A DNA stretch of 64,000 bases from Lepisosteus oculatus (taxonomy: Eukaryota; Chordata; Actinopteri; Semionotiformes; Lepisosteidae). The notes below the pieces were generated by a model. That model was not told the DNA's origin. It saw nothing but the letters and a program-made list of their open reading frames with translations, and made no database searches. A program made the translations under genes and the position numbers. The first letter of the stretch is position 1. Every line of letters starts with the position of its first letter. Location of the stretch: contig NC_090704.1 in NCBI RefSeq assembly GCF_040954835.1, positions 35,592,979 through 35,656,978 of the forward strand. The letters are read 5' to 3'. Positions 3,407 to 55,700 of the stretch are shown piece after piece.

Positions 3407-3790
3407 TTATCCTATTCTCGTATTCTGTGCTCTTAACAATGGTTTCTTTGCAGTAATTCTTCCTTGTAGGCCATCTTCACGCAACCTCCTCTGAACACTT
3501 CTAGTTGCATTGAGCTCATCTTGTATTTCAGGGGCAGTTAGTTGCTGGTTCTGCAGACTTTTGACACTAATGAACGTATTCTCTGATTCTGAGGTCACCT
3601 TTGGCCTGCCTGACCTTTTCCAGTCCCCATGAGGGCCAGTTTCTTCATGTTGTTTGATAGTCTTGGCCACAGCAGTTACTGACACTTGCAAAGTTCTTGC
3701 AATTTTTCTTAAAGATTGACCTTCATGTCTTAAAGTAATTATAGACAGTTTTTTTCCATGCTTAACTGAGCAACAGTTTGCCATGTTCAT
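3407..3790 (-). pseudogene. Tc1-like transposase, N-terminal fragment
   Basis: A 127-residue minus-strand frame matches the N-terminal half of fish Tc1/mariner transposases. The first helix-turn-helix contains QSLRKIARTLQVS, then comes the GRPKVTSE linker, then a second helix-turn-helix ending SVQRRLREDGLQGRITAKKPLL. This region normally binds the terminal inverted repeats. The DDE catalytic domain that should follow is absent, and a short stretch before SVQRRL also seems deleted. It is therefore a dead, truncated copy. A terminal-repeat-like end of the same style lies at about 6061-6135. Confidence 0.85.
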
Positions 3791-4127: not shown

Positions 4128-6060
4128 TTTAATTTAATTCAACTTTATTGTCATTAAACTTACACAGGTACATAGTATAATGAAAAGTGTTTCTCATTAG
4201 TCACTCAGGTGCATTATATAAATAGGACAGAAGATGAGACAATAGACAGTTACACAATAGCAATAACAGTAACATGTAATAACATAACATAAATAACATG
4301 TGATCAAGTAATCAAAAGTGTGCAAAATTCCACAAACAGAGATAATATAACAAGACAAAAACAGTGCAAGGTAATTCTTGGAACAGTGCAAAAATAGTAT
4401 GGTTAAAAATAGTATGATTAATTAATAAATATTAAATATTATTACAACCGGTACAGTTTTATTGGGCTATTGAGGGGACAGTACAATTTCGGCTTACATG
4501 TGTGTGTAGTGGTGTAGGAGTACAGTCATTGTGGGTACAGGAAGATGTTAGGAGAGATCATAATATGGTGGGAGGGAGTGGGGGCATCAACAACTTGACA
4601 ACTCTGGGGAAAAAGCTATTTTGGAGTCTAGTTGTGTGTGTCTGGAGTGACCTGAACCTTACGCCGGATGGTAGGGGAACAAACAAGTTATGACTGGGGT
4701 GAGTGGAGTCAGACATAATTTTGGTGGCTTTTTTCAGACTTCTGGTGTTGTATATGTCCTGGATGGATAGTAAGGCACTGCTGATGATGTGTTGGGCAGT
4801 TTTGACCACCCGCTGTAGTGCCTTACGGTCGGATGCGGGGCAGTTGCCGTACCAGACTGTGATGCAGCTGGTCAGTATGCTCTCCACCGTACATCTGTAG
4901 AAGTTGGTGAGGATCTGTGGATGTAGGTGTATTTTCTTCACCCTTCTTAGGAAGTACAGCCGCTGTTGTGCCTTCTTGATTAGACTGGAGGTGTTCAGTG
5001 TCCATGTAAGGTCCTTAGAGATGTGACCACCTAGGAATTTGAAGTTATTCACCATCTCCACCGCAGACCCTTCTATGTAGATGGGGGAGTGAATTTTTCC
5101 TTGTCTTCTGAAGTCAACAATCAGCTCTTTGGTTTTGCTGATGTTGAGACATAGGTTGTTGGTTCGGCACCAGTCTGCAAGTTGTTTTATCTCCTCCCTG
5201 TAGGCAGTCTCATCATTGTCAGTGATCAGGCCCACAACTGTGGTATCGTCAGCATACTTGATGATGGTGTTTGTACTGAACTTGGCAGTACAGTCGTGGG
5301 TGAACAGGGAGTAAAGGAGTGGGCTGAGCACACAGCCTTGAGGGGTGTTAAGGGTGAGTGTGTTGGAGGTGAGGTTGCCAATCCTGAAAGTCTAGGGTCT
5401 GCTGGTGAGGAAGTCTAGGATCCAGCTTCAGAGGGTTGTATCTAAACCTAGAGCCCTGAGTTTGGTAGAAAGTTTTATGGGTATGATGGTGTTAAATGCT
5501 GAGCTAAAGTCAATGAACAGCATTCTTGTATAGGTGTTCCTTTTATCCAGGTGGGTTAGTGTGGTGTGTAAAGCTATGGAGATTGCATCCTCTGTGGAGC
5601 GGTTTGTACGATAGGCAAACTGGAGAGGATCCAGTGTTTTTGGAATGCTGGCTTTAATGTGTGGAATAAGTAGTTTTTCGAAGCACTTCATTATAATGGG
5701 GGGTGAGTGCAATAGGGCGGTAGTCGTTCAGGCATGTGAGGGCTGATTTTTTCGGTACTGGCACAATGGTGGTCATATTGAAGCAGCTAGGTACAGTGGC
5801 CTGGGCCAAGGACAGGTTGAAGATGTCGGTACAGACATCAGCTATCTGCCAGGCACATGTTCTAAGTACCAGGCCAGGGATACCATCAGGTCCAGCAGCT
5901 TTATGTGTGTTCAGTCTACTTGGTGATTTCCACACATCTAGCTTGGATAGTGTGGGGGGTAGGGTGGTAGGGGAGTCAGTGGTCCAGGTGGTTGGTTCAG
6001 GGTTATGAGCTTCGAAGCGTGCGTAGAAGGTGTTAAGCATGTTTGGAAGAGAGGGGTCAG
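4128..6060 (-). pseudogene. L2-type LINE, 5'-truncated, broken reverse transcriptase
   Basis: Minus-strand frames give an ordered non-LTR reverse transcriptase: the pre-RT region (NTFYARFEA, about 6040), [11 protein letters not shown], the [10 protein letters not shown] block, then a frame change to [12 protein letters not shown] and [11 protein letters not shown] (5428-5712). After an in-frame TAG near 5395 comes TPQGCVLSPLLYSLFTHDC and the catalytic YADDTTVVGLI, then the C-terminal PLPSGVRFRS tail (4558-5331). The frame break and stop make it inactive. The endonuclease half is missing, as in ordinary 5' truncation. The 3' end (about 4128-4170) carries the TGACAATAAAGTTGAATT-like tail usual for this clade. 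L2 (Maui-like) is the best family call; CR1-group relatives are the alternative. Confidence 0.85.
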
Positions 6061-6135
6061 TAGCGCTTAAAGCACAGATAATCAGGAAAAACCTGGTTTC
6101 AAGGAGGTGTACTCATACTTTTGACTTGTACTGTA
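6061..6135 (-). repeat. Tc1-like terminal inverted repeat remnant
   Basis: Read on the minus strand it begins TACAGTACAAGTCAAAAGTA and continues GAGTACACCTCC, the style of fish Tc1 ends (TACAGT followed by a CAAAAG-ACACC block). It abuts the truncated 5' end of the L2-type LINE. It may be the outer end of the element whose transposase fragment lies at 3407-3790, separated from it by the LINE. No partner repeat was seen below 3407. Confidence 0.5.
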
Positions 6136-25946: not shown

Positions 25947-28058
25947 AAAATTTATTTTAAAAATAAATACATTTTAAAAATAATTTAAATATTTCAAATT
26001 ATTTTAAGCCTTTGGCACTCCTTTAATACAATGCCAGAAACACGACTAAAGTTTCTTTGCTGAATGGCTAGATTTTTTTGCATCTTTGTTCCAGTTTCCA
26101 TTTATAAATTTGCTCACCATGTTGACAAACTACTGAAATTACCTTTTAAAGATTAAGAACAGTAAATGACTCAAGAAACGAGAATAATTCAACTTGAAAT
26201 ACAATCCTTGGTGTCCTAGCTGTTTGGGGTTTTAACTCCATGTGGAACATTTTATGCAATTTCTTCTTTTTTTTTAATAATTAAAAATGTTAAGATGCAA
26301 CAGTTATGCAAATGATATATTGTTACATCTAAACCTTGAATTTAATATTATGGACTATTTGCAACTGGAATATCCTAATATGAGACACGGTAGACTACTG
26401 ATTATGTAAAAGTAGGGGAGTAAAACTTGTAGAATTCTAAGATGACAAATTTAATCTATACCAACTCTCAGTTATTCTCAGTTACCATCCAGAAGTTACA
26501 CAGTCCTCTTTGAAAATAGTGTGGAACCATGTCATGATAAAAAGTGTTTCTTTTCCCGATTGAAATCACTCATTGTCTGACTTTTGAGGTTTTGTTCAGA
26601 ACAAATTTTGTGTTACTCAATTGTATTTTGCATACGATGTTCAATATTTGCTGTAAATGTGACAATGAAGCACTGTTAAGATACCTGTGTTTTCATAGTG
26701 CAGTAGAATGGGGGTTTGAGTTTATAATGAAAGTGGAACATGCATCTCCTTATATAAAACTAATCTCTGTGTCATCATGACCCTGAAATGGATGAACCGT
26801 TATTGAATGATATGTAGTAGTGCTGTAAATAGTTTAATAATTGTAGTTCTGTTAAAACATTTCCAAAACTACATTTGGCTTGCTTTAAAACTATATTCAA
26901 ATGCTTGAAAATGAAAAATATACATTCAGACCAAGACATTATTCTTGGATATGAGCTGGCACTGCATATTGTTGACACAGTTGTGAAATCACTTTATCAG
27001 TGCCAACCTATACTGTAGAGTTGTCATAGAACCACAGTTCATTGTATCCACAGTTCATTTGAGACATTTCAGTAATTACTTTGGTATTTTGAATGGCTTA
27101 ACAGTGTTGCAACAGAATCAGGATAAAAAAGTTCACATACTGAGACTGCATAAACAAAAGAACAATACATCAAGGAAATTCAAGAAAAACCAAGGCTGAT
27201 TTGGGTGGGACAAATTTCCAAGTGACGTCCGCAATGAAATGGTTGATGGACTTCTGCAGGGTCACGTAGGAAACATGGAATTAAATATTTAAAGAGGTTT
27301 TTGAAGACAGTGACATAAGCTGAATGTCACGGAAGCCGGTTCTGACTCCCGTGAAGTGTGTTATTAAAGATCCTGTGCAGAAGGTATAATCCGGAGGGAC
27401 AACTGAGGAAGGTCTAGCGGGGTTAGGATGGGTTGATAGACAGGGGGCAGTAACTGTAGTGATCAGGTGCACGGGGGGATGCCGAAGCAACCAAAGTCCA
27501 AACAGTCCGAAGTCCAAAACGGGAAGTCGGTGCGCAGTCCGTAGTCTGAATCAGGGAAGTAGCCTGGGTTGACCTTAGGCCTACCCAATCAGTCCAAGGT
27601 AATTTAAGTTTTTTTTTCCCCATGTTTGCGTTACATGATTTGCTTTTCAATGTTACGTGTTCGCTTTTTTTTTTTCATTTGATGTGATTTGCTATTGGCT
27701 CGCTGTATCTTTTGTGACCAACAAGATACGCGGCGCATGCGTAGCTTACTTCGATATCATTATCGTCAGACTCTCTTTGAGCTATCTAGCGCTAGGTTTT
27801 GGTTTATTAACCGACATGGCAAAACAAAGGCATGTATCTACGTTTTTCAAAAACCGCCTGTAGGTGACCAGAACAGTCCCGTAACAAATAAGACACATGA
27901 GATGCTACAGGCATCTTGGGCTTTAAGGAGTACATCCTGGCTTCTCGGATACAACGTGCACACGTTTGCTTGTAGGAGTTGAGCACGGAGAGATTCTAAA
28001 ATTCATCCGGTAAACAAATTACAAGTTTTGGAATGCATGAATAACATTAAGATAATAG
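25947..28058. other. spacer downstream of gene 1
   Basis: AT-rich to about 27200, then GC-richer. The stretch 27310-27600 (AGTCCAAACAGTCCGAAGTCC and similar) looks like an unclassified, possibly LTR-type, repeat. At 27733-27742 there is an NRF1-like GCGCATGCGT. A 15-codon frame at 27816-27863 reads MAKQRHVSTFFKNRL then stop, reminiscent of the start of hAT/TTF-type transposases, but too short to call. Confidence 0.35.
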
Positions 28059-28294
28059 TGTAACGCTTACGGCCGACAGGCGCTGTGTAAGAGCCGGCGT
28101 ACCAGAGCGGGTGACGTCACCGCCCTTCCCTGTGATAGCAGGACCACAGCTACTGGGCTGTGGAGAGATCTCTCTTTGGCTCACGGGGCTAGGTCGCTGC
28201 AGAGAGACGCGGAAGTCCTGGGTTCGAGCCCCGGACGGTGCAGGGGCTGACCAGATGCGGCAAGGGCGCCCGCCCGAGCCCCCGTTGCGTTACA
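28059..28294 (+). repeat. LTR copy 1
   Basis: 236 bp. Contains a palindromic CRE (TGACGTCA) at 28112-28119, an A-box-like TGGCTCACGGGG at 28177 and a B box GGTTCGAGCCC at 28221-28231. Confidence 0.75.
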
Positions 28295-28295
28295 T

Positions 28296-28312
28296 TGGTG
28301 TCAGAAGTGGGA
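28296..28312 (+). promoter_or_regulatory. tRNA-Leu-type primer-binding site
   Basis: TGGTGTCAGAAGTGGGA, one base after the LTR end, complementary to a tRNA-Leu 3' terminus including CCA. The second internal (from 28594) has AGAAGCGGGG instead. Confidence 0.7.
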
Positions 28313-28356
28313 TGGGATAGCCCTTCGCCGGGGACGGCGATTTAAGCGGGGGAGAG

Positions 28357-28592
28357 TGTAACGCTTACGGCCGACAGGCGCTGTGTAAGAGCCGGCGTAC
28401 CAGAGCGGGTGACGTCACCGCCCTTCCCTGTGATAGCAGGACCACAGCTACTGGGCTGTGGAGAGATCTCTCTTTGGCTCACGGGGCTAGGTCGCTGCAG
28501 AGAGACGCGGAAGTCCCGGGTTCGAGCCCCGGACGGTGCAGGGGCCGACCAGATGCGGCAAGGGCGCCCGCCTGAGCCCCCGTTGCGTTACA
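28357..28592 (+). repeat. LTR copy 2
   Basis: 236 bp, three transitions from copy 1. The B-box stem is a perfect CCGGG/CCCGG here. Confidence 0.75.
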
Positions 28593-28654
28593 TTGGTGTC
28601 AGAAGCGGGGCGGGATAGCCCTTCGCCGGGGACGGCGATTTAAGCGGGGGAGAG

Positions 28655-28890
28655 TGTAACGCTTACGGCCGACAGGCGCTGTGTAAGAGCCGGCGTACCA
28701 GAGCGGGTGACGTCACCGCCCTTCCCTGTGATAGCAGGACCACAGCTACTGGGCTGTGGAGAGATCTCTCTTTGGCTCACGGGGCTAGGTCGCTGCAGAG
28801 AGATGCGGAAGTCCCGGGTTCGAGCCCCGGACGGTGCAGGGGCCGACCAGATGCGGCAAGGGCGCCCGCCCGAGCCCCCGTTGCGTTACA
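28655..28890 (+). repeat. LTR copy 3
   Basis: 236 bp, two transitions from copy 2. It is followed by ATATTGACGG, not by another primer-binding site, so the array ends at an LTR as an integrated element should. Confidence 0.75.
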
Positions 28891-29394
28891 ATATTGACGG
28901 ATAGATGTGAGTGTGCATTTTACAGATAACTATTCAGATCGCCTCTAAATGCCCTGCAGTATTTTTAATTGAACGACGTTTACAGAACTAAAATACATCC
29001 AAAGTATGTCTTTGACACTTTTATTAGCAGACCATTCTTGCAATTAAAGGTACGATGAATTGCTTAGCACTGTAGTGCGACTATAACAGTTTAGTGTTAA
29101 GTTTTCTGGGAAGTCATGAATTTCCAAGTTAGGTGTCTTCTGGCATCGAAAATAGAATACTTATGTCGTGGGTTTCATACAAGTTTAAAAGCATCATGAA
29201 GGATCAAAGAAGATCTTCAGAACTAAATATTTTAATACCTTCGCAGTTTGTATTCTCATGGCGCCTCACTCGATATTACCCTTGGGGCGGTGCATTTACT
29301 CCAGCCTCTGAAACCCATACGTGCGTGCACGTTCTTCTGGTATATTTATGCTCAAGTCCGCTGAATATTTAAAGGCAAGGTAAAAGCTCCGTGA

Positions 29395-30064: not shown

Positions 30065-30556
30065 AGATTGGACGTGTCGCGACATGGGGGTTAACATATC
30101 CTGTCAGAGTATGTCATATTAAAACATATGGACTCCATGTCACGACATGGGGGTGGGCGTTTTGGCTGGGCATGTCATATCCCAATTTAGGGCCTTCAAT
30201 GTCGCGACATGGAGCGGGGCATTTTTGCCGGGATATGTCATATCGGATACGGAGGCTTCATGTCGCGACATAGCCGGGGGGGGGGGGGCATTTTTCATAT
30301 CGCGATATGCGTGCTTCATGTCGCGACAAAGCCGCACGGGCGGGGGGCATTTTTCAAATCGCGATTTGGGCTCCATGTCCCGACATGGGGGGGTTCATAT
30401 CGCGATATGCGAGCTTCATGTCGCGACATAGGAGGAGGGGGGGGGGGGGGGGGCATTTTTCAAATCGCGATATGCGAGCTCCATGTCGCGACATGGAGGG
30501 GGGCGTTTATCGGGGTATGTCATATCGCGATATATGGACTTAATGTTCCGACTGTG
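30065..30556 (+). repeat. ~60-bp minisatellite of TCGCGA palindromes
   Basis: About nine units start near 30073, 30134, 30197, 30257, 30315, 30371, 30416, 30479 and 30541. Each holds ATGTCGCGACAT or a close variant, most with a second palindrome (ATATCGCGATAT or AAATCGCGATTT) and a G-rich spacer ending CATTTTT. CTCCATGTCGCGACATGGAG at 30479-30498 is a perfect 20-bp palindrome. G runs reach 13 (30276-30288) and 17 (30437-30453). The short plus-strand frames here are by-products of the repeat. Confidence 0.85.
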
Positions 30557-50100: not shown

Positions 50101-52681
50101 AAGGAATCCTGTGGAGCTGATATTAGCATTGCCAACTTCTAGCCAGAATTTGGGAGCAAGGCTGAGCCCAGCCAGCACTAGGCCTAGAGCTCACTAAGGA
50201 AAATCAGGTCTCTGTTATAAATGTTGGACCACTAGATGGCCCCCTAGCCCCAAAGTTTCAAATCAAATACTCCTGTATGATAGGGACACTGGAAGAGGAA
50301 CCAAGGCACTGTATTAAGAGCAGAGGCGTTAACACTGGTGTTCAGCCTACATTCACCTCTGAAATTCCTTTATTTAACTGTTTAACTGGCAACAGACAAT
50401 GTCTCACTTTCTACCTGATCTGCTCTGTACTCCTAGTGTTGATAAACTGGTGGTTGAAGTGGGTCCCCTCCTATATCTAAAGAACTTTTTGGTCCTTTGG
50501 GATGGAGAGCACTTTATAAATGGGGCAAATATTGAACAATTTTGTTTGTCTCATGAAGTGTGGTTGTGGTTTGATTGTTATTTTCAGCTTTAAGTGAACC
50601 TTTACAATATGCCTAGGAAAAAAAAAATTCTCCCATCAGTTTGCTTTTATGTCTTTGAATGATATCTCATCCACAGTTCAGTTAGTTATCACCTTTCTAT
50701 GGTCTCCATTCTTTAAATGTTTGAACAGCTTTTTCCATACACTTGGGTAAACAAGTGTCTTTCATCCTTTTCATCTCCTGGAGATCCTTTTTTGTATTGA
50801 TGATCAACATTTAAAAATTGTTCCTGCAGAAAGTTATGAGTGAGGGTTTATTTTTTTGAAGTGATAAACATAAATATTTATCTTTTCTAGGACAATAACG
50901 CACAGAAACTTTGTTCTTCAGGAAGAGGAAGAGACCAAGACTAGACAGGAAAAAGAGGTAAGGTTTCATGATTCTTGCAGACTGATGTGTAGTCTCAAGT
51001 TACAGTATTTGAACACTTAATTTCATTACCCACTTAACTGCAGTGCACAACCTAATTTATCACCTCAAGTACCACATTTGTTTCTCTGGCATCCGTTACT
51101 GATGCAGTGTATCATTCATTGAATTCATGTTAAATAAAACAATGTGATTTTAATTTGATTACTTAAGTAACTTTGCTAGTGACTAAACTAGAAGGATTTT
51201 GCCAGAAGAATTGAATGGAGGGTTTATCCCATAATGGCACTCTGTGGTCACGGGTTTGAGTTACAGTATGTCACTAGCTGACCATGACCATAATTCTGCG
51301 AGTGTTGGCGTGCCATTGTCAAAGCACCACTGGCGAAAAAGTGGGATTAGTTATCTCTACAGCATGGCGACCCTTGTGGACTTGTGCACATCTCTTCTCT
51401 GGTCTGCCGTCAGCTTCCAGTACGAGGCTTTCTTTCCCATGATTAAAAGACTGTGGGTCGGTGAGGCAAAAAATCGCCCATGCTCTGTTCCCCTGTGTGT
51501 GGTCAAAGGGTTCATTACTGTGTGCCATAGCGGACAAACAGGCACTACTGCTTGTTCCAAATCAGGTGGACATGACAAAAAATTATCTGAGATTTTAAAA
51601 CTAATTCTTTACAGGGCCAGATGACATTGTAATGTCTTGAAATTAACTCAAAAGGGTTGAGAAGGTTTCATTTCAGTTGCTTCAAAACAGGATATTAAAA
51701 CACTACAGCATGCCAGGTATTGGGGTTGGGGAAAAAAATAAGTTAAGGATTGGTATCGGGGCTATAGCAAAATCATCAGTGGTGGTCTTGGGGGGGGTTG
51801 GTGAATCCACTACAGCATTATCCCCATTTGAAGATATTTGGAAAATCTAAACATGGCCTTGCTTTTAACAAGAGGAGCAATCTACAGTAGATTCTCCCCC
51901 CTCCTCCCCCCATCTTGTTTACCCCCAGTTTAAGTGCTGAAACTAGCATGACTGATCAGGTAGATTCTGGGTTTGCTCTGTCTGCCCGGAAGAATCGAAT
52001 TATATAGCATGACAAAAACCGATGGAGGTACCTGCTTTGCCCTCAGGCCAGCAATCAAACAGTGCAAGTCAAATATTTGAAAAGAACGTTAATTTGTTTT
52101 CTGTTAAAGTTGTTTAACAGCAGCCATATTACTCTACAACTCACAACTGGCAACCCACTGAAGCTAAGCAGGTGTGAGCCTGGTCTGTACCTGGATGGGA
52201 GACCTCCTGGGAAAAACTAAGGTTGCTTCTGGTAGAGGTGTTAGTGGGGCCAGCAGGGGGCGCTCACCCTGCGGTCCATGTGGGTCCCAATGCCCCAGTA
52301 TAGTGACGAGGACACTATACTGTCAAATAGGTGCCGTTCTTCGGATGAGACGTAAAACCGAGGTCTTGACTCTCTGTGGTCATTAAAAATCCAAGGGCAT
52401 TTCTCGAAAAGAGTAGGGGTATAACCCCGGCATCCTGGCCAAAAAAATTCCCAATGGCCCTTACCGATCATGGCCTCCTAATATTCCCCATCTATGAATT
52501 GGCTTCATTACTCCGCTCTCCTCCCCACTGATAGCTGATGTGTGGTGAGCGTTCTGGCGCGCTATGGCTGCTGTCACATCATCCAGGTGGGGCTGCACAT
52601 TGGTAGTGGTGGAGGGGAGTCCCCATTACCTGTAAAGCGCTTTGAGTGGAGTGTCCAGAAAAGCGCTAAATAAGTGTAAGC

Positions 52682-52726
<45 letters not shown>

Positions 52727-55700
52727 ATATGCAAGTTTACCTTATGAAATCATTTGAATGTTTTTAAAACATCCTCCATCCATTTTCTAACCGCTTCATC
52801 CAATTCAGGGTCATGAGGGGGGCAGAATCTATTCCAGCAAGCAACAGGTGCATGGCTGGATCCACCCAGGATGGGATACTCACACCAGGGCCAGTTTTCC
52901 CAATTAACCCACCAGCACATCTTTGAGCTGTGGTCGGAAAATGGAGGGCCCGGAGGAAAGCCTCACAAATGCAGGGAGAACATACACACTCTTCTCAGAT
53001 AGTACTCCTCCAGGAAACGGCTCCAGCCCTGTGAGAGAGCAGTGCTAACTACAGCACCACCTTGCCATCCTGAATTAATCATACCTGTTAGTAATGAATG
53101 GCTGTACCGGAAAGGATATCTTCAAATCAGACTTTTTGGCTTATTCTTTTTGTCTCAGGTTACGTGCTCCCTGCGATGGAGTATTCACCAGCATCCCAAG
53201 CTGCACAATCTCTTCAACTTCTCTGTGCCGGTACTACAGTGGGCCAGCTCCTTCAGCCCCTCCGAGTGGCAGAGACTGCAGCAGCACCTGCCTCCCTATG
53301 GCTGGAAGGGCCTGCCTGTGGAGGGTATCAGTGCAGCTTTCCTCCCGTGTCACCCCTTCACCTCTCTGAGCAGTTTACCGTAGGGAGGGACCGAGCACAA
53401 GGAAGTAATGAAGAACCTGGTTGATCCTAGAGCTCCTATCTCTCCCTTTGTTTCATCTCTATGGTGCAAACGTTCAATTAAACATAGTTTGCATATTAAT
53501 TAATCATAGTGTAGCACCACATGGTGTAGACCCCGCTTGGGGTTGTGTTTTACACCTGTTGGAGAGCAAACTACTGCAGAGTTGACTGTTGCTCTACACT
53601 TGCAACGTATACAGCAATCTGCAGATTGTTCATGCGCTGGTTGTAACTGTTATTCTACATAGACAATTGCCCACTCACAGCCTTGAAGTGCTTCTCTTCC
53701 TAATATTTTTCAGAATGTATCCTTAAAAGGTCTCCATAATTCTGTGGCATTTTAATTTGTAAGGAACTCAAATGAGGTTATTAGTATCTAAACAGGAATT
53801 GTGATGTGGAACACGTGTGCATGTTTGCACTGTGCTGTGCTATGACGTAGTGGTGTTGTTTCAATTTTGGCAGTTGGCCGGTGTCTAATGTGGAGATTTC
53901 AGCCCCAGAACTCGTTGCACAAGTCTATTTCATCAGGAAAGTTAGGAAACCTATTGGATGACTCTCTTCTGTTTTCTCTGAAATCCTTTCTCCACTGTCT
54001 GGGGTTTGTCCTTGTTCCAGTGGTGAACTCAACCCTGGCCCTCCTCGGTGAAGAGGCAAACCGCGATGTCTTCCCAGTGCGCCCGCAGGGGGGCTGTGTC
54101 CGCTGTGCTGTGGTGGGCAATGGGGGTATTCTCAATGGCTCAAGGCAGGGCCACGCTATTGACAGTCACGACTTTGTTTTTAGGTGCGTGCTATGAAATT
54201 TCTGTTTAATAATTGTATACTTGACTAGCATGTTTACCAGGAGGTTTTATATGTTGGCTTTAAATGGACAAATAGCACTGATCTGGAAAGAAGGAAACTT
54301 CAAATGAGGGAACCTGAAATAAAAAATACAGAGAAGTGGAGAACAGATAGTACTTAAATGTAGAATTTCTGTTTATCCTGCAAGTGCCGAGTAAAGTTAA
54401 AGCAATGTTTTTATGAGAATGCTGTTTTTCCCCCTCTTCCTCTTTTTCATTTCTTTTCAGTTGTTAATTTTTAAAAACCCATTGTTTTCTCTTTAAAGCA
54501 CCTTTATGGCATATGTTGTGGTTTGCAAATGTTCAGTAAAATATAAAAGCATTTGAGATGTATAGCAGCATTTCTAACGTGCCATGGCATCTATAACATC
54601 TACAGTATCTACATGTGCTAGGAACTTGTGCAGTGGTGATAAAGTGATTTGAACAACCAGATAACAGCATCTGAGTCCTTCTAAAGCCTGTTTTGTGTTC
54701 CTTCCAAACAATTGTTTGTGCATGTTTAGAATAAATGGGGCCATAACAAAGGGGTTTGAAGAAGATGTTGGCACTAAAACCTCCTTCTATGGCTTCACTA
54801 CCAACACCATGAAGAACTCTCTGATTGCATACAGGGCCTTTGGCTTTGACAAGGTTCCTCAAGAGCAGGTAAGAAGTTCTTAGTAAATCTGCAGATGCGT
54901 GAACATTGCGTTGTCAAGTCATTTCTAAAGCACGTGGTAACCATCCTTTATAAATTATTAATTCTCTTTTATTACTATTTCTGCAGAGTTTTTGCATTTA
55001 TGCAGTATGCTGAAAAATCTGTTACCATTTAAGCTTTATTAAAGGAGGTCTCATGGCTTATACTATTTTGGAGGTATTTTCAGGGAGGCAGTGCATTAAT
55101 AAACACACTATTTAGCTCTAGGTGATTTGGTATAAGGCTGCATGATGGTACATTGCTGCGCTGGGGCCCTGGGTTCAATTTCATACCTGGTGTGCTGTCT
55201 GCATGGCATTTTGTAGGCTCTCCTTGTGTTTGTGTGGGTTTTCACTAGGTTCTCTGGTTTCCTCCTCCAAGACATACTAGTGGATTAATTGGCTTCTGGA
55301 AAAGTGGGTGTGGGTGTGTGTGTGTGCGTCCCGCTCATGTGTACCCAGCCTTGTGTCCATTGTTTACCAAGATAGCCTCTGGCTCCCCCGCGGGCGTATA
55401 TGTGCCATTCGGAGGTAGAGGCCTGTCAGTTTGCTCCAGAACACCTGAGGCCCTCCTCCCACTGTTGTGTGTCCTGCAGGACATTCAGTACATCTTCATC
55501 CCTTCAGACGTCCGCGACTATGTGATGCTGAGCTCAGCGATCCGAAGTCTGCAGGTTCCCTGGGGACATGACAGGGGTGACCTGTGAGTTTGGGGAGAGC
55601 AGTGGTGGGGCTTCCATTTGGGGGGGAAAAAATGTTCTTGGACTCTTGGCAAACTCAAAAGGATTTTGCCGAGTTGAGAAGTTGCTTCTAGAGAAAGCTA

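Follow-up and report, generated by a model that had tools for sequence, protein, structure and literature searches.

Tandem forms of a miniature LTR retrotransposon in Lepisosteus oculatus, and fold-back forms joined at or near a palindrome in its LTR

We asked what kind of element is represented by an array of three LTRs in Lepisosteus oculatus, found at 28059-28890 of a 64,000-nucleotide stretch of contig NC_090704.1 (the whole of which is here called the window), and how an element of this shape could have arisen. The sequence of the window contained three LTRs of 236 bp alternating with two internals of 62 bp, and this arrangement, as it had been described in an earlier note made from the letters alone, was confirmed both by the coordinates (Table 1) and by TRF, which gave a period of 298, 2.8 copies, 98% matches and a score of 1619. 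Pairwise comparison of the LTRs revealed 3, 3 and 2 differences per 236 bp, solely transitions, in agreement with the LTR-LTR identity near 99% and the absence of other changes that had been claimed. BLAST with the unit found no further copy elsewhere in the 64-kb window. The putative primer-binding site (PBS) may be of the tRNA-Leu type, as had been assigned earlier, an assignment that would fit vertebrate tRNA-Leu.

Table 1. Features of the three-LTR array, with positions in the window.
Feature	Position	Strand	Remarks
LTR 1	28059..28294	+	236 bp, ends TGTAACGC...GCGTTACA
LTR 2 (middle)	28357..28592	+	98.7% to LTR 1
LTR 3	28655..28890	+	98.7% to LTR 1
Internal 1 (62 bp)	28295..28356	+	PBS type TGGTGTCAGAAGTGGGAT and PPT-like end
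Internal 2 (62 bp)	28593..28654	+	PBS type TGGTGTCAGAAGCGGGGC; rest as internal 1
Putative primer-binding site 1, 18 nt	28296..28313	+	by position: adjoins LTR end
Putative primer-binding site 2, 18 nt	28594..28611	+	by position: adjoins LTR end
Polypurine tract (PPT-like) GGGGGAGAG	28348..28356; second copy 28646-28654	+	by eye
Left flank ATAG, imperfect 4-bp target duplication	28055..28058	+	
Right flank ATAT, target duplication	28891..28894	+	
12-bp palindrome GAGAGATCTCTC, LTR 105-116	28163..28174; copies 28461-28472, 28759-28770	+	fold-back junction at other loci; proposed RNA 5' end and R region (putative start)
A-box-like TGGCTCACGGG, LTR 119-129	28177..28187; also in LTRs 2 and 3	+	fits TRGCY and YGG of Kojima 2024
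B-box-like GGTTCGAGCC, LTR 163-172	28221..28230; also in LTRs 2 and 3	+	GGTTC of Kojima 2024
Palindrome GGTGACGTCACC with CRE/ATF-like core, U3, LTR 52-63	28110..28121	+	from sequence

Searching the 1.2-Gb genome for the junction between LTR end and PBS, with at most 2 mismatches, gave 1,089 matches (523 on the plus strand and 566 on the minus strand), which is a count of junctions and not of elements, as one tandem element may hold several; a control search with the reversed pattern gave 0 matches. With 28000-28900 as the query there were at least 65 matches, a lower bound derived from the 40 of 2,367 first-look candidates that were scored. The sample studied consisted of the DNA of 38 loci. 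Eight of these (L001-L008) represent four distinct places, namely the window, an array on C19, a place on C14 and an array on C5, with L001, L002 and L004 being the best matches to the three-LTR query and thereby a biased sample. The other 30 (L009-L038) are the first exact matches to the PBS junction, all on contig C1, and correspond to 26 distinct loci. Thirteen of those 26 had the canonical form of LTR, internal and LTR (534 bp with 236-bp LTRs), one was truncated (L009), two were three-LTR tandems (L017 and L028) and 10 were fold-backs. The canonical copies thus had two short direct LTRs and a short non-coding internal, together with a PBS assigned by position and a PPT assigned by eye, as typical of a terminal-repeat retrotransposon in miniature (TRIM). 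In four of the 13 (L011, L016, L021 and L024) the two LTRs were identical, which makes the recent activity proposed in the earlier note plausible, though another canonical copy, L032, showed 34 LTR-LTR differences.

For target duplications we used a strict score, in which the four flanking bases on each side must be identical, with 28 loci scored at both ends; left out were L033, the right end of which is absent from the sequence, and the C5 array, which is spanned by no single locus and has ATAA/ATAA at its ends, within a TAA repeat. A perfect 4-bp duplication was found at 25 of the 28 loci, comprising 13/14 canonical or other copies, 4/5 tandems and 8/9 fold-backs, the three failing loci being the truncated copy L009, the array of the window (ATAG/ATAT) and the truncated fold-back L030. 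With copies both dispersed and flanked by 4-bp target duplications, we reject the reading of the unit as a satellite, and the earlier proposal of a mobile TRIM, with LTR-62bp-LTR copies at separate places, is supported. The duplicated sequences were ATAT (15 loci), GTAT (5), ATAC (2), GTAC (2) and GTTA (1), the targets strongly preferring the form RTAY (24 of the 25 perfect duplications). Swapping of flanks between loci, as a control, gave a match in 265 of 756 pairings (35%) because ATAT dominates; five fold-backs (L013, L015, L023, L026 and L038) had duplications other than ATAT, for which this bias does not account. From the perfect duplications in 8/9 of the fold-backs it is clear that these were inserted as units, with a U5-type end on either side.

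Judged by its anatomy, the element belongs to a class already known, the Helenus-type TRIMs (TRIMp3, Kojima 2024). The signature of Helenus consists of an A box with TRGCY and YGG and a B box with GGTTC, both within the LTR (Kojima 2024, PMC10886601), and in the LTR studied here we found TGGCT...CGG at LTR 119-129 and GGTTC at LTR 163-172, the two boxes being 44 bp apart; the assignment to Helenus follows from these tRNA-like boxes, which, like the fold-backs, had no place in the earlier note. The 4-bp duplications of the scored loci are as reported for animal Helenus (PMC10886601), and the 534 bp of the two-LTR form falls within the Helenus range of 311-1263 bp (PMC10886601). A promoter derived from 5S rRNA, which would have indicated Cassandra, was not seen, as a comparison of 27900-29000 with Rfam, taken up to E = 1, yielded nothing. 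With ARAGORN finding no tRNA gene (0 genes) and Rfam no family, we do not read the stretch as a tRNA gene or a known RNA family, and a stable tRNA-like fold was likewise rejected, the tRNA-like stretch folding no better than its shuffles (z 0.30).

The element probably uses the tRNA-like promoter of its LTR, as suggested by the sequence of the two boxes. In tRNA genes the transcript begins some 12-20 bp ahead of the A box; a like distance would place the start here at about LTR 99-107, so that the RNA should begin at or in the 12-bp palindrome, which ends two bases before the A box. The transcription start, the length of R and the use of RNA polymerase III are all predictions from the sequence. 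Points against this reading are that ARAGORN and Rfam did not recognise the tRNA-like stretch, that its fold is no better than that of shuffles, and that the 298-bp unit has no TTTT terminator, which would make read-through of tandem units easy. A second palindrome, GGTGACGTCACC, has a CRE/ATF-like core and is situated some 45 bp ahead of the position at which the RNA is proposed to begin; ATF sites located upstream assist certain viral genes that polymerase III transcribes.

The fold-backs made up 10 of the 26 distinct C1 loci (L013, L015, L019, L022, L023, L026, L030, L033, L035 and L038), a fraction that pertains to one contig and to copies with an exact PBS junction and is not a genome-wide frequency. 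In form A, the right part of the LTR (about 105-236) is present in inverted orientation and adjoins an upright right part, after which come the internal and an LTR; in form B, the join connects two whole inverted elements, and since this form holds two internals it had two chances of being sampled. One of the loci, L038, combined a fold-back with a direct three-LTR part. The join coincided with the palindrome GAGAGATCTCTC or lay close to it, the two outer ends being of the U5 type, and at least one arm ended at LTR 99-112 in nine of the ten fold-backs according to the BLAST bounds, the exception being L035 (131/128). At the join itself the palindrome was intact in L019 and L038 and had one change in L030, with bases lost, gained or rearranged in the remaining fold-backs, including L035, in which the palindrome region was lost. 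Palindromes are prone to such loss, gain and rearrangement of bases, and those of this kind are a source of unstable DNA. Three further joins of the fold-back kind were present among the matches to the three-LTR query, at C9:30494257-30495112, at C2:73238990-73240185 and in the C5 array, with the sequence read for C5 alone (L007 and L008).

The two arms of a fold-back were compared over LTR 148-236, for all except L026, in which one arm was too short. The number of changes between arms was 5 in L013, 0 in L015, 12 in L019, 11 in L022, 5 in L023, 11 in L030 (over only 40 columns), 3 in L033, 12 in L035 and 3 in L038. Over the same part of the LTR, the 13 canonical LTR pairs differed at 1, 0, 5, 0, 2, 0, 0, 0, 0, 1, 1, 17 and 3 positions, that is by 0-2 in 10 of the 13 and by at least 3 in three, with the 17 belonging to the old and diverged copy L032, and random pairs across loci had a median of 10 differences. 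Four of the nine scored fold-backs (L019, L022, L030 and L035) carried different subfamily motifs in their two arms, which fits the pairing of two cDNAs and not the snapping back of one. Arms with 3-5 differences (L013, L023, L033 and L038) could derive either from two cDNAs or from aged copies of one cDNA.

Further arrangements were seen. The C5 array, at G000 C5:59391076-59394907, had 12 full LTRs with an inverted pair of LTR halves at its end and was situated between TAA repeats. At G000 C5:6668937 (+) and 6669270 (-), two PBS junctions face each other 333 bp apart, in a layout opposite to that of the fold-backs. At G000 C17:6996899-6998535, neighbouring matches occurred in both orientations, also in a layout unlike the fold-backs.

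Taken as a whole, we consider it probable that this is a non-autonomous Helenus (TRIMp3) LTR retrotransposon that is started by RNA polymerase III in the palindrome, thereby having a self-complementary R, and that the pairing of its cDNAs explains the several forms. RNA polymerase III would start inside the palindrome that immediately precedes the A box, giving an RNA that begins with the self-complementary R, and a helper LTR retrotransposon would provide Gag, reverse transcriptase and integrase. The minus-strand strong-stop cDNA would end in R', the pairing of which with R at the 3' end of the RNA would be the normal course. If R' instead paired, after the cDNA had run to the RNA 5' end, with R of a partner RNA, tandem LTRs as in the window would result, and if it paired with R' of another cDNA, the product would be a fold-back, having two U5 ends that integrase would accept. 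The PBS end of this paired product might be used in second-strand transfer once, giving form A, or twice, giving form B, with the bare palindrome (form C) as a further predicted product. The fold-backs suggest, in other words, that the palindrome misleads the copying of RNA into DNA.

A wider proposal, which we hold to be evenly poised between right and wrong, is that the self-complementary R makes strand transfer ambiguous and thereby opens a second common route of replication, in which two strong-stop cDNAs pair via R' and replace the normal plus-strand strong-stop DNA. The resulting elements would be bounded by U5 on either side and be inserted by integrase in the normal way. The junctions of fold-backs would then record in the genome, like fossils, where the RNA begins, and those fold-backs that are chimeric would reveal the helper of a shared particle. 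If true, a palindrome of 12 nt at the start of the RNA decides between direct and inverted integration, an element bounded by two U5 ends is acceptable to integrase in the germ line, and there is a purely genomic way to find the RNA start sites and the helpers of non-autonomous retrotransposons.

Other origins of the fold-backs should be weighed against the pairing of two cDNAs. One cDNA could have snapped back on itself at the palindrome, a reading that is aided by the lack of differences between the arms of L015, by the arms of L007, which match except near the centre, and by the possibility that arms with 3-5 differences (L013, L023, L033 and L038) diverged after insertion. We nonetheless find it rather unlikely, as snap-back arms would start identical, whereas L019, L022 and L035 had 11-12 changes between arms and L030 had 11 over 40 columns, with subfamily-specific motifs in each arm. 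The fold-backs could also postdate insertion, if a second copy had entered the first or an inversion had taken place between copies lying side by side, which is conceivable in a family abundant enough for nested copies; it is made highly improbable, however, by the single target duplication at the two outer U5 ends in 8/9 and by an inner join that is not an element end and that recurs at or near one palindrome. Inverted chimeras are also known from long-read data, but such artefacts of sequencing or assembly should show a mirrored flank and two arms of the same sequence, and they are scarcely credible here, with scored fold-backs having two flanks that are not mirror images, a target duplication in 8/9 and clearly unlike arms in 4/9.

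As for the array of the window, three positions distinguish one internal from the other, all of them within the 18-nt PBS and none elsewhere. The PBS type of internal 1 was found in 12 of 45 full-length internals, or at 5 of 28 loci when counting one internal per locus, and that of internal 2 in 23 of 45 and at 16 of 28. As both versions recur at other loci, new mutation alone does not account for the differences in the window, and CpG decay was dropped as their source on the same grounds. Internal positions 1-13 are invariant by selection in L009-L038, these having been chosen by exact match there, so that a comparison can be made between positions 14-19 and what follows them in the internal. 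Non-consensus cells amounted to 47/270 at positions 14-19 against 14/1,980 beyond them (a number that includes position 1) in the 45 internals, which are not independent as the C5 array alone supplies several, and to 22/168 against 14/1,232 with one internal per locus (28 loci).

With the PBS as the sole difference between the internals of the window, an origin of the trimer in reverse transcription is favoured. If a cDNA that had reached the 5' end of its RNA were transferred to the 3' end of a second RNA, the new element would have two identical outer LTRs and a middle LTR that might differ, and the first PBS would be renewed from the tRNA primer with the second keeping the version of the template. 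In L017 the outer LTRs showed 0 differences from each other and 4 from the middle LTR; the corresponding numbers in the direct part of L038 were 0 and 3, and in L004 the outers were 1 apart, with 4 and 3 differences to the middle. In L002, five LTRs of two types alternate, and the doubling of unit pairs there points to later expansion in place as well. The trimer L028, having 5 differences between its outers, lacked the pattern of identical outer LTRs, and the LTRs of the window gave no outer/middle signal, with their differences being private.

Recombination, either by crossing-over within one element or between insertions, is the other possible origin of the tandem forms, and has been proposed for tandems of TRIMs and of other LTR elements (PMC11899658, PMC4528315, PMC4558846). 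The private LTR differences of the window would agree with it, as would the inexact flanks ATAG/ATAT, which crossing-over between two insertions could leave, and the repeating unit pairs of L002 and identical runs of the C5 array, which look like later expansion in place. Crossing-over within an element should nevertheless give identical internals and would not yield the PBS difference of the window, with three changed positions and each version recurring; crossing-over between two insertions could yield it, but should spoil the target duplications, which are perfect at the four other tandem loci scored. The middle LTR differing from nearly identical outers in L017, L004 and the direct part of L038 also speaks against recombination, which we therefore deem unlikely, though deserving serious thought. 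The evidence hence favours the array of the window being a trimer product of reverse transcription, with one target duplication decayed. Where the earlier note had left the choice between unequal recombination and reverse transcription, the PBS difference thus favours the latter, and recombination between insertions is less favoured. If this is true, reverse transcription is the source of at least part of the TRIM tandems, a matter that had been left undecided in PMC11899658.

No helper with the same LTR ends was found, and the nearest candidate came from the fold-back L033/L034 (G000 C1:57853996-57854281), the upright arm of which runs through U5 and PBS into coding sequence. The first open reading frame of this arm, of 332 aa, had weak zinc-knuckle matches below the cut-off (E 0.051 and 0.073), and the next one encoded an aspartyl protease domain (PF13650, E 7.2e-07). 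This order is that of gag and protease in an LTR retrotransposon; the sequence read, which stops short of the far end, showed no reverse transcriptase. It is the R-U5 part that is joined to the coding sequence, the LTRs of that element also being outside the sequence read. By analogy we infer that the coding element is of the Gypsy type, because of the 4-bp duplications and the argument made by Kojima for animal Helenus. The locus may have formed when TRIM cDNA primed on helper cDNA via a shared PBS, or may represent a helper that shares R-U5; the protease-coding element is a candidate helper in a possible TRIM-helper chimera.

TRIMs in tandem have been reported in plants, bivalves, cestodes and zebrafish (PMC10886601, PMC6934838, PMC4717578, PMC4558846). 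Helenus/TRIMp3 resembles the present element in its tRNA-like A and B boxes, PBS, PPT, 4-bp duplications in animals and short non-coding internal, and tandem arrays are noted for the zebrafish LTR-11_DR; the main text of that paper gives no inverted, palindromic or fold-back form (PMC10886601). Cassandra likewise has a polymerase III promoter in the LTR (predicted in the gar element) and tandem arrays with at least 12 LTRs, for which template switching has been proposed as one origin (PMC7215508), but its promoter is 5S-derived with a terminator, and there are 18-bp duplications at the RNA ends (PMC10886601), in contrast to the gar unit without TTTT. For Zma-SMART (Gao 2016, PMC4717578), L3I2 was the commonest tandem form, with 63/93 in maize, and Fig. 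2 of that study, on a PCR-checked set, has one element with two inverted TRIMs and a single target duplication; it is a single inverted case, presented in the available part of the paper without junction, arm comparison or mechanism. The biv-TRIM of bivalves (PMC6934838) has repeats of 202-218 bp, an internal of 77-80 bp mostly ending in GGGGAGA, and long tandem arrays, but no unambiguous PBS, and fold-back elements are not described in the part of that paper available. Together with the internal of 85 bp in Selaginella Helenus (PMC10886601), this shows the earlier description of 62 bp as near the minimum to have been fair. Plant tandem LTR retrotransposons (PMC11899658) also share LTRs and are flanked by target duplications, with two rice loci read as single insertions, but these are elements of coding size, for which the authors left the mechanism open. 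Recurrent fold-back TRIMs joined at a palindrome were found in none of the publications listed by title and start of abstract, a scope outside which preprints and most subscription papers fell. As far as the literature searched goes, it seems new that fold-backs occupy 10/26 sampled loci, joined at or near a promoter-side palindrome and partly having arms of unlike parents.

The window held other features apart from the array. A 5S rRNA-like stretch at 52116-52234 (+), scoring 39.5 against the Rfam gathering score of 38, may be a pseudogene of 5S rRNA or else the leading part of a SINE derived from 5S. At 53846-54196 (+) there was a GT29 sialyltransferase exon, with alpha-N-acetylgalactosaminide alpha-2,6-sialyltransferase 2 as the best solved relative. 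The N-terminus of a helix-turn-helix transposase, with Pfam HTH_Tnp_Tc3_2 below the cut-off and Tc1-like by eye, was seen at 3407-3790 (-), and open reading frames at 4558-5391 and 5654-6112 (-) resembled, again by eye, pieces of a non-LTR retrotransposon reverse transcriptase. At 30254-30386, finally, there was a short tandem repeat of about 59 bp in 2.3 copies, which is overlapped by two long stop-to-stop frames.
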